A stretch of 37,249 bases of DNA from a virus. Positions 7,205 to 37,249 of this stretch are shown here, one piece after another (within the stretch, counting starts at the first letter, position 1; every line of letters starts with the position of its first letter). Made by a program: the position numbers and the translations under genes. Where the stretch lies: positions 1-37,249 of the IMG/VR virus record IMGVR_UViG_3300047678_000471; one strand, given 5' to 3'. A model generated the notes under the pieces. It did no database searches. It was not told the DNA's origin and saw only the letters and a list, made by a program, of their open reading frames with translations.

Positions 7205-7957
7205 ATGGCTCAAAAGTCAAACATACAATGGACTGATGCAACTTGGAATATCGCAAGAGGTTGCACAAAAGTAGATGAAGATTGCAAGTTTTGTTATATG
7301 TATAGGGATAGTTTTGATAATACAAGATATAACCCTTTGCAAGTAACGAAAACTAAAACAGTTTTCAATTTGCCTTTGAAGATAAAAGAACCTTCAAAGA
7401 TTTTTACCTCGTCATTAACAGATGTATTTCATCCTGATTGCGATGCTTTTAGAAATGAAATGTGGGATATAATTCGCAAATGCCCACAGCATACTTTTCA
7501 GATACTTACTAAACGACCTGAAAGAATTGAAGCAAACACACCTGCTGATTTATTACAGGCAGAAAATATTTTGTTTGGCACAAGTGTAGGAAGTGAGAAA
7601 GGCAAACAAAGGATTTACGATTTATTAAAAGTTGATTGCAAAACTCGTTTCATTTCATTTGAACCACTACACGAAAGAGTAGATATGAATTTAGATTTAC
7701 TGGACTTGCTTAAAATTCATTGGGCAATTATTGGTGGTGAAAGTGGTAATGAAACTGGCAAATATCGTTATCGCCCTTGTCAAGTTGAATGGATGGAAGA
7801 ACTTGTAAAAGACTTAACACCAACAACTGCAATTTTCGTCAAACAAATGGGAACACATTTAGCAAAAGAGTTAAAAATGTCTGATAGGCACGGTGGGAAC
7901 ATTGATGAATTTCCGTCCACCTTGCAAATTAGAGAGTTTCCCAAAGGTAGCAGCTAA
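7205..7957 (+). CDS. DUF5131 (phage Gp37/Gp68) family protein
   Basis: The 250-aa protein is recognisable as the phage Gp37/Gp68 family: IQWTDATWN near the start, a CX6CX2C cysteine cluster (Cys20, Cys27, Cys30 in GCTKVDEDCKFCY), then FTSSLTDVFHPD, FQILTKRPERI, FGTSVGSE, SFEPLHER and IIGGESG. The cysteines suggest an iron-sulphur or metal site on a TIM-barrel-like fold, but the activity is unknown. The TAA stop lies inside the left end of the first attC-like site (7953-7959). It is the first gene of the array; no attC-like end is visible upstream. Confidence 0.85.
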   Translation: MAQKSNIQWTDATWNIARGCTKVDEDCKFCYMYRDSFDNTRYNPLQVTKTKTVFNLPLKIKEPSKIFTSSLTDVFHPDCDAFRNEMWDIIRKCPQHTFQILTKRPERIEANTPADLLQAENILFGTSVGSEKGKQRIYDLLKVDCKTRFISFEPLHERVDMNLDLLDLLKIHWAIIGGESGNETGKYRYRPCQVEWMEELVKDLTPTTAIFVKQMGTHLAKELKMSDRHGGNIDEFPSTLQIREFPKGSS

Positions 7958-36052: not shown

Positions 36053-36080
36053 GCCCCGGATGTCTATCCGGGGCTTTGTT
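36053..36080 (+). terminator. Late-operon terminator / first helix of methyltransferase leader
   Basis: GCCCCGGAT/ATCCGGGGC form a 9-bp perfect stem with a GTCT loop, followed by TTTGTTT. It ends the tail operon. It is also the first helix of the structured stretch before the methyltransferase gene. Confidence 0.7.
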
Positions 36081-36120
36081 TGAGGATACAAGCAGCGAAC
36101 TTTTTTAAAACTCAAACAAA
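36075..36120 (+). promoter_or_regulatory. Second helix of the structured leader before the methyltransferase gene
   Basis: TTTGTTTGAG (36075-36084) and CTCAAACAAA (36111-36120) are perfect 10-bp inverted repeats ending 2 bases before the ATG at 36123. The enclosed loop contains GATACAAGC, the last part of the 14-nt motif (36080-36093) found again at 37003-37016. Pairing would place the start codon at the base of a helix, which could control translation. Confidence 0.5.
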
Positions 36121-36122
36121 AT

Positions 36123-36926
36123 ATGCGACCATTAATGAAAACGCCGATTAGCTATTACGGCGGTAAACAAAAGTTAGCACCAGTTATAGTGCCTGTTATA
36201 ACTGCACAGCCCCACACGCTTTATTGTGAGTGCTTTATCGGTGGCGGAGCAGTTTTTTTCGCAAAACCGGAAAGCGAAGTAGAAGTTTTGAACGACACAA
36301 ACAGGGAGTTGATAAATTTTTATTCAGTTGCCAAAAATAGGTTTGTTGAACTTGAAAAGATGATAAGCGTAAGCCTCCATAGCCGCTGGTTGCACCGGGA
36401 TGCTACGGTAGTGTATGAAAGTCCTCATTTGTTTGATGAGGTAAAAAGGGCATGGGCCGTTTGGGTGCTTAGCACTCAAAGTTTTAGTTCAAAGCTCGAT
36501 GGCAACTGGGGTTTTGATATAAAAAAACGGACTACAACAACTAAAATAACGAATAAAAGAAATGACTTTACCGAAGCGATAGCCCAGCGGCTTCAAAACG
36601 TGCAGTTAGACTGTGCTGATGCTTTGTATGTTATAAAGAGCAGGGATAGCGCTGATAGCTTCTTTTATTGCGACCCGCCGTATTACAACAGCGATTGCGG
36701 TCATTATGATGGATATAGCGAGAGTGATTATATGGCCCTGCTTGAAGTGCTGAGCGGTATAAAGGGCAGGTTTCTGTTATCTTCCTATCCATCGACCTTA
36801 TTGGATGGGTATATCAAACAAAATGGCTGGCATAGCCAGTGCTTTGAACAGGGGGTAAGCGTTAATGCGAAGGGTGGTTATCGTAAGCGTAAATGGGAGG
36901 TTTTAACGGCTAATTTTAAGTTTTAG
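36123..36926 (+). CDS. D12-class DNA adenine N6-methyltransferase (Dam-like)
   Basis: The 267-aa enzyme transfers a methyl group from S-adenosylmethionine to adenine in DNA. Visible motifs are SYYGGKQKLAP (10-20), the SAM-binding FIGGGAVFF (38-46) and the catalytic DPPYYNSD (184-191), in the alpha-type order of D12 methylases. No restriction enzyme is beside it, so it is probably a solitary methylase protecting phage DNA or marking regulatory sites. An ATG at 36135 is an alternative start. It is set apart from the tail operon by the terminator at 36053-36080. Confidence 0.9.
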   Translation: MRPLMKTPISYYGGKQKLAPVIVPVITAQPHTLYCECFIGGGAVFFAKPESEVEVLNDTNRELINFYSVAKNRFVELEKMISVSLHSRWLHRDATVVYESPHLFDEVKRAWAVWVLSTQSFSSKLDGNWGFDIKKRTTTTKITNKRNDFTEAIAQRLQNVQLDCADALYVIKSRDSADSFFYCDPPYYNSDCGHYDGYSESDYMALLEVLSGIKGRFLLSSYPSTLLDGYIKQNGWHSQCFEQGVSVNAKGGYRKRKWEVLTANFKF

Positions 36927-36933
36927 GTAAAAA

Positions 36934-37042
36934 GGCCCGGACGATAATTAAAAGGTGCGAATCATTCAACTACCTGGCATTGCTGCCTGTCCGGGCCGTA
37001 TCTTGAGGATACAAGCCAAGCCGATGTAGTTGAATGATTCGC
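36934..37042 (+). ncRNA. Candidate pseudoknotted structured RNA after the methyltransferase gene
   Basis: Two perfect inverted repeats are interleaved: GGCCCGGAC (36934-36942) with GTCCGGGCC (36989-36997), and a 17-bp pair (36957-36973 with 37026-37042, GCGAATCATTCAACTAC and its complement). Between them lie a small hairpin GGCA-TTGC-TGCC (36976-36987) and the 14-nt motif TTGAGGATACAAGC (37003-37016). The 5-bp GTATC/GATAC hairpin overlaps that motif. Interleaved helices of this length are not explained by a simple terminator. Strand is assumed to be that of the upstream gene. Confidence 0.5.
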
Positions 37043-37112
37043 TGGGCGAAGATAGGTGTTAATATGGGGGTTAAAGTGCTTTTAAAAGGTTTTTTTATTG
37101 CGAGGTAAAAAA

Positions 37113-37128
37113 TGTTCCGTTTAGTTTT
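37113..37128 (+). repeat. Right-end transposase-site-like repeat R2
   Basis: TGTTCCGTTTAGTTTT is a direct repeat of the outer right-end site 22 bp further on. One base differs at the centre. The 37043-37112 stretch before it holds no gene and no feature I recognise. Confidence 0.6.
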
Positions 37129-37134
37129 AAAAAA

Positions 37135-37151
37135 TGTTCCGTTTTGTTTTT
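37135..37151 (+). repeat. Right-end transposase-site-like repeat R1
   Basis: TGTTCCGTTTTGTTTTT is the outermost right-end copy, inverted relative to the left-end copies at 69-85 (16/17) and 160-176 (15/17). Host sequence begins a few bases to the right; trmB starts 29 bp further on. Confidence 0.65.
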
Positions 37152-37175: not shown

Positions 37176-37180
37176 CGCCC

Positions 37181-37249
37181 ATGGGCCAAAAAAAATTACT
37201 GCGATTTAATGCTATCAAATCCTTTTCGAATGTGCTGGAATACCCGGAG
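37181..37249 (+). CDS. trmB: Start of host tRNA (guanine-N7)-methyltransferase (partial)
   Basis: The first 23 codons (MGQKKLLRFNAIKSFSNVLE then YPE) match the N-terminus of Bacteroidota TrmB, which makes 7-methylguanosine at position 46 of tRNA. The rest lies beyond the window. It marks the host side of the right prophage end and points to a Chitinophagaceae-like host. The identification rests on 23 residues only. Confidence 0.65.
   Translation, partial: MGQKKLLRFNAIKSFSNVLEYPE

Follow-up and report, generated by a model that had tools for sequence, protein, structure and literature searches.

A candidate pseudoknotted small RNA encoded opposite the late genes of a Mu-like phage of Bacteroidota, and its proposed role in opening the leader of the phage's dam gene

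Bacterial small RNAs acting in trans can activate their targets by opening an inhibitory hairpin in the leader of the message, as is the case of DsrA and RprA with rpoS, and of RNAIII with hla. Type I toxin-antitoxin and lambda OOP-type antisense RNAs repress, and are encoded next to, and opposite, the gene that they control. Phages P1 and P7, as well as their relatives, carry the c4 antisense RNA (RF01695), a structured molecule whose loops are complementary to a leader of the same phage. To our knowledge, the unlocking of a phage DNA-modification gene is known only with a protein key. In phage Mu, the start codon of mom lies in a hairpin that is opened by the Com protein (PMC6483171). The c4 RNA is listed in PMC2864571, where the STAXI motif (RF01728) is reported as a pseudoknot near antirestriction and DNA-manipulating genes. 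Here we analyzed a stretch of viral DNA of 37,249 nucleotides (referred to as the window throughout), and propose that a knotted small RNA encoded on its minus strand pairs with the dam leader and activates dam translation in trans, a reading to which we assign a probability of about 0.6.

The window derives from a Mu-like transposable phage of a Bacteroidota host (IMG/VR virus record IMGVR_UViG_3300047678_000471). Its transposase is MuA-like, with 33% identity to that of Elizabethkingia phage TCUEAP3, an AAA protein of the MuB type and a Mu-like I protease are also encoded, and the gene order agrees with that of TCUEAP3 and of Winogradskyella phage Peternella_1. The phage genes finish with dam, which shares 60% identity with the dam of Peternella_1. 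A DUF5131 (PF07505) protein is encoded in the early region, at positions 7205-7957. Toward the right, two 22-bp direct repeats, TAAAAAATGTTCCGTTT(A/T)GTTT, at 37106-37149 are probably transposase binding sites marking the right end of the phage, and related AACAAAA(A/C)GGAA sequences are present close to the left end, at about 75-90 and 163-175. A host reading frame, MGQKKLLRFNAIKSFSNVLEYPE, which may be TrmB-like, starts at 37180 (37180-37249), suggesting that the prophage sits just before a host gene, and a host-like open end, LDNVTSAMCMHQQRFGFDVYGGKNKKEQS, is seen at positions 3 to 92.

The original prediction for the region just downstream of dam was that interleaved, perfect 9-bp and 17-bp inverted repeats form a candidate pseudoknotted non-coding RNA. 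Both repeats are exact and their coordinates were confirmed, with stem 1 (GGCCCGGAC at 36934-36942, pairing with GTCCGGGCC at 36989-36997) interleaved with stem 2 (GCGAATCATTCAACTAC at 36957-36973, pairing with GTAGTTGAATGATTCGC at 37026-37042). The 17-bp repeat, which had been judged very unlikely to be a product of chance, has no equal in the window, where no other perfect inverted repeat confined to 100 nt exceeds 11 bp, and the two stems sum to 26 bp, compared to no more than 19 bp in 405 dinucleotide shuffles of the flanks of related genes, most of which contained no interleaved pair at all. No reading frame of annotated size was found across the element, again as predicted. When folded against dinucleotide shuffles, the element gave z scores of -4.8 (minus strand) and -4.4 (plus strand), with 0/200 shuffles as good; a good fold on either strand is, however, expected of an inverted repeat, and the fold alone therefore does not give the strand. 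The features of the locus are collected in Table 1.

Table 1. Coordinates of the predicted small RNA gene, its parts and the proposed target region in the window.
Feature	Position	Strand	Basis or remark
Terminator-like hairpin CCCCGG-ATGTCTAT-CCGGGG-CTTTGTTT	36054..36080	+	Between tail genes and dam; from sequence
dam leader hairpin TTTGTTTGAG/CTCAAACAAA	36075..36120	+	Fold z -2.55; 3' arm ends 2 nt before ATG at 36123
Target site TTGAGGATACAAGC in dam leader	36080..36093	+	30-43 nt before start codon
dam	36123..36926	+	D12-class N6-adenine DNA methyltransferase, 267 aa, PF02086 E 2e-23; proposed target gene
Small RNA gene, ~114 nt	36929..37042	-	Predicted start at/near 37042, end in U-run 36929-36933; order of parts as in dozens of relatives
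U-run after P2, terminator-like RNA end	36929..36933	-	Sequence
P2 3' strand GTCCGGGCC	36934..36942	-	UUUUU directly after
P1 3' strand	36957..36973	-	P1 covaries at 11/11 modelled pairs
Hairpin E GGCA-GCAA-UGCC, GNRA tetraloop	36976..36987	-	Fold; covaries in relatives
P2 5' strand GGCCCGGAC (pseudoknot)	36989..36997	-	Sequence and covariation
Hairpin D (GTATC-CTCAA-GATAC)	36998..37012	-	Fold
Seed GCTTGTATCCTCAA, loop and 5' arm of hairpin D	37003..37016	-	Perfect complement of dam leader 36080-36093
P1 5' strand, 17 bp, first RNA nucleotides	37026..37042	-	Sequence, inverted-repeat search
-7 promoter box TATCTTCG	37047..37054	-	Sigma-ABfr consensus TAnnTTTG, one mismatch; ends 4 nt before P1

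Close DNA relatives of this region were not found by blastn in phage records, and because the letters diverge among elements, relatives had to be found by their architecture. Peternella_1 dam and TCUEAP3 mom are each preceded by an interleaved stem pair, with letters quite different from those of the window. Of the loci with a homologous dam that were examined (80 viral loci, and 80 genome loci from Chitinophaga, Pedobacter, Mucilaginibacter and many Flavobacteriaceae), about half have the architecture with perfect stems, in one of two placements: before dam, at a distance of about 150 to 40 nt, or immediately after the gene, which is the arrangement of the window, while many of the remaining ones, inspected by eye, show imperfect stems or are cut by the contig end. 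An alignment of the members obtained with MAFFT and RNAalifold misaligned P1 and produced partly spurious helices; a covariance model seeded on five close phages, with the window left out and P1 named by hand, was used instead. Searched against 100 loci, this model detected 32 elements, none of them on the plus strand, and it recovered the window (43 bits, E 7.8e-7, minus strand). Paired cells reached 94.8%, compared to 66.6% after shuffling and 32-43% when slid (0/500 shuffles as high), and the pseudoknot helix P2, not entered as pairs in the model, pairs in 98.9% of the cells. The original prediction had named a lack of compensatory changes among homologues as the outcome that would speak against it; double compensatory changes are instead found at 27/31 pairs, pseudoknot included, and the structure passes this check massively. 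The candidate RNA call was, in other words, right, and a structured, independent small RNA with a pseudoknot is strongly supported as a prediction from sequence. In Rfam 15, which includes the c4 antisense RNA and STAXI, no match to the window was seen at gathering score, nor was any seen in ten related loci at E up to 1; no such RNA was found in the searchable literature (subscription papers and preprints lying outside its scope), and the family appears to be undescribed.

In every element the order of parts on the minus strand is the same: TAnnTTTG, P1, seed, P2 5' strand, P1 3' strand, linker, P2 3' strand and U-run. The first of these matches the -7 consensus established for the Bacteroidota primary sigma factor (PMC7366714), and an exact copy of it ends 0-5 nt, mostly 2-5, before P1 in 52 relatives; with a -7 box just before P1, the RNA should start with P1. 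Across 162 dam loci, promoter and U-run occur together in 55 elements on the minus strand and in 0 on the plus strand. With a stricter descriptor, all the loci together yielded 24 matches, every one of them on the minus strand, and about 119 control contigs that carry chance TTGAGGATACAAGC matches yielded none. Further, G.U wobbles outnumber A.C mismatches by 25 to 8, which favours the minus strand as supporting evidence only, given that the model alignment leans slightly to G.U. Taken together, the signals strongly support a predicted RNA on the minus strand, opposite the other late genes of the phage. The same data bear on the possibility that the element works in cis, as a structure within the late message transcribed from the plus strand (an attenuator or a protein-binding leader), and that the minus-strand signals are incidental. 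The plus strand does fold (z -4.4), and where the element lies upstream of the gene a plus-strand terminator-like hairpin before dam is common (64-77%; 64% strong, compared to 10% in shuffled sequences). In the window and its class, however, the element is downstream of dam, both the promoter and U-run tally (55 to 0) and the wobble tally (25 to 8) point to the minus strand, and the complementarity to the dam leader described below makes sense only for a minus-strand RNA, so that we consider a cis-acting role quite improbable.

Two other roles had been suggested for the element at the outset. That of a processing or exonuclease-resistant element is not supported. As for a DNA structure serving transposition, or packaging, at the right end of the phage, the element is indeed near that end and near the transposase-type repeats at 37106-37149, but these repeats are separate from it, dozens of relatives have the element upstream of dam or mom and away from the end, and the oriented promoter and U-run are kept, which makes such a role hardly credible.

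The original prediction, correct on the RNA, had not noticed its strand, promoter and terminator, nor that it is complementary to the dam leader at a distance of 900 bases, a feature that points to its likely function. The window contains two copies of TTGAGGATACAAGC, one within the element (37003-37016) and one within the dam leader (36080-36093), and the duplex of seed and leader involves 14/14 bases, at -21.8 kcal/mol. When tried as a general motif across viral contigs, TTGAGGATACAAGC gave at least 119 matches, which is chance level, and is phage-specific. In the 37 phages with a downstream element, we matched the P1-P2 interval of each RNA to the dam leader of the same phage, and pairing was good in 34/37, at nearly the same place and with a different sequence in each group (consecutive pairs: 16 bp in L126, 14 in L127, 14 in L151 and 13 in L138). 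The score for own pairs was 1246, against 724 +/- 29 for permuted pairs (about 18 SD; 0/50,000 as high), and with only one phage per seed cluster, for 22 unrelated clusters, it was 797 against 440 +/- 24 (about 15 SD). RNAduplex run on whole sequences yielded rambling duplexes, still 8 SD over permuted pairs, and was replaced by this local test of segment D. In 31/39 loci, the leader ranked first among the plus-strand sites of the entire locus, and in the 37-kb window it was the best plus-strand site besides the sRNA gene itself, by a small margin (34.5 vs 32.5). In L188, L189 and L272, where an element with good stems lies downstream of dam, a convincing target in the dam leader was not found, and these elements may have another target. 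As far as can be judged from sequence, base-pairing of the RNA with its own dam leader is strongly supported, and the predicted RNA and its dam-leader target co-evolve. It could be argued that the two TTGAGGATACAAGC copies are operators for a DNA-binding regulator of the phage, and that no base pairing is involved, as the site in D is partly palindromic (GTATC-TTGAG-GATAC) and operators would also change together within one phage. In the leader copy, however, the 5' half of the palindrome is missing, and what the two copies have in common extends from the D loop into a single arm. Moreover, the leader copy occupies the loop and 5' arm of a hairpin, and some of the differences are compatible with G.U pairing; we thus regard operators as very improbable.

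The sign of the regulation was approached through the leader. In 34 phages of the downstream class, a hairpin lies just before or over the start codon of dam (mean z -2.57), and in several of them (L157, L166, L177) the start codon itself is within its 3' arm. The target is the loop and 5' arm of this hairpin, not the 3' arm. The start region is computed to be unpaired at 0.40 in the free leader and at 0.73 once the target is bound, with an increase in 32/34 and a decrease in one, a gain in accessibility that alone is no proof of activation, as binding one arm of any hairpin computationally frees the other. Because the target lies on the arm opposite the start and binding would free the start, as with small RNAs that activate by opening a leader and with Mu mom, whose Com protein was absent from the phages searched, translational activation is favoured. 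In the mechanism that we propose, a free-standing minus-strand RNA of ~114 nt would be made from its own promoter and finish in a terminator-like end. Comparison among phages shows that the RNA folds with P1 enclosing hairpins D and E and with the pseudoknot P2 joining the P1 loop to the 3' end; since P2 would engage bases whose alternative partner is the GGCUU end of the seed (the GGC/GCC extension of hairpin D competes with P2 in the fold), the pseudoknot might serve to present the seed. The dam leader hairpin is predicted to occlude the start region. The seed, which D carries in its loop and 5' arm, is matched by the same comparison to the leader, where it is predicted to pair with the loop and 5' arm of the hairpin; this would open the hairpin and free the start region, leading to trans activation of dam translation. 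Activation of dam by the RNA is what we infer from this modelled geometry.

Our initial reading was of repression, as by a type I antitoxin, and was demoted on the geometry of the leader. A rather unlikely alternative is that the same RNA, from the same strand and with the same target, represses, acting as a prophage antisense that silences dam or mom in the lysogen until outnumbered by late transcription. The pairing evidence is identical in either case, DNA-modification genes are often kept silent, and in the upstream class the RNA is fully antisense, in cis, to the dam or mom leader. The host-type promoter also fits a repressor; being strong, it suggests expression in the lysogen too, where a repressor would be simpler, and this counts against activation. 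The target, however, is mostly 15-50 nt upstream of the start codon, on the 5' arm of the occluding hairpin, and pairing there should therefore open the start rather than block it; pairing with the 3' arm or the AUG, which would suit a repressor, is rarely the case.

Activation through an opened leader, the reading that we favour for the window, might not extend to the upstream class. Here the RNA gene is directly upstream of, and divergent from, the modification gene, and the RNA is antisense to the leader itself. The class comprises many dam phages and all eight (8/8) of the phage loci with close mom relatives, in which the element precedes mom; it is missing from the two mom loci that are most distant. 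The P1 of upstream elements often starts with UCUCAC(A) in dam and mom phages (e.g. L192, L200 and L298), with stems that otherwise differ. The start region is only moderately blocked (0.49 unpaired), and no trans target for these RNAs was found within the loci. The mechanism may therefore differ, and could be antitermination, antisense repression or translational opening.

In L172, a Peternella-like phage, the element heads an operon of a thymidylate-synthase-like enzyme and dam; the thymidylate-synthase-like gene (PF00303) overlaps dam (L172:2333-3816), possibly as a base-modification operon. At a prophage end (L242:4998-7342), the RNA element follows dam, a C5-cytosine methylase (PF00145) and a small ORF of the minus strand, all in a row. 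When the window-type model was run on 301 genomes of one host family, five matches were obtained in four genomes, three of them beside dam, one with only a short dam-like stretch, and a weaker one without dam. The element appears to be tied to phage DNA modification, and not to host functions. In MT835523, a related transposable phage, the element was not evident by eye, and the right end resembles a diversity-generating retroelement (DGR) instead. Such a DGR-like right end is seen by eye at L124:39500-41871, in a related transposable phage, where a reverse-transcriptase-like ORF at 40125-41546 and repeated variable stretches take the place of a modification gene.

We lean, if only slightly, toward a broader reading, in which an undescribed family of pseudoknotted RNAs replaces Com as the key to the DNA-modification genes of transposable phages throughout Bacteroidota, be it dam, mom, or an operon encoding a thymidylate-synthase-like enzyme or a C5 methylase, with a private seed-target pair for each group and locks that are largely mutually incompatible. 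If true, this would be a new family of phage RNAs, widespread and with a target that can be read from sequence, in a phylum whose known sRNA mechanisms are few, and the translational lock of the Mu mom type, opened by a protein there, would have an RNA-operated counterpart. The mechanism, a small RNA opening a leader, would be of a known kind, applied to phage DNA modification. Seed-target pairs would behave like natural, mutually distinct riboregulators, and could provide a series for testing specificity and for building switches for Bacteroidota.

Compared with the known systems, the locus differs from c4 in its fold, which is another one and without an Rfam match, in its Bacteroidota rather than Proteobacteria setting, and in that c4 represses. 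STAXI consists of tandem short pseudoknots in Enterobacteriales, unlike the window, which has no Rfam match. As with type I toxin-antitoxin and lambda OOP RNAs, the gene adjoins and opposes its target, but the geometry predicts opening of the leader, and the target is an adenine methyltransferase of 267 aa, not the small toxic, usually membrane peptide of a type I system. With DsrA/RprA-rpoS and RNAIII-hla the RNA would share an anti-antisense action, the small RNA being predicted to pair with the arm that hides the start region; it differs in being encoded by a phage of Bacteroidota, beside its target, on a pseudoknotted scaffold and with a new seed in each phage group. The likeness to Mu com/mom (PMC6483171) is that of a modification gene at the right end of a transposable phage, with start signals in a leader hairpin and, as proposed here, a trans-acting factor of the phage that frees the start upon recognizing a hairpin, whereas the factor would be an RNA with base-pairing specificity rather than the zinc finger protein Com, and the gene in the window is dam and not mom. 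Com (PF10122) was absent from 13/13 phage records searched, including that of the mom phage TCUEAP3, and by this comparison the small RNA would work like the Com/mom switch of Mu without being a member of it.
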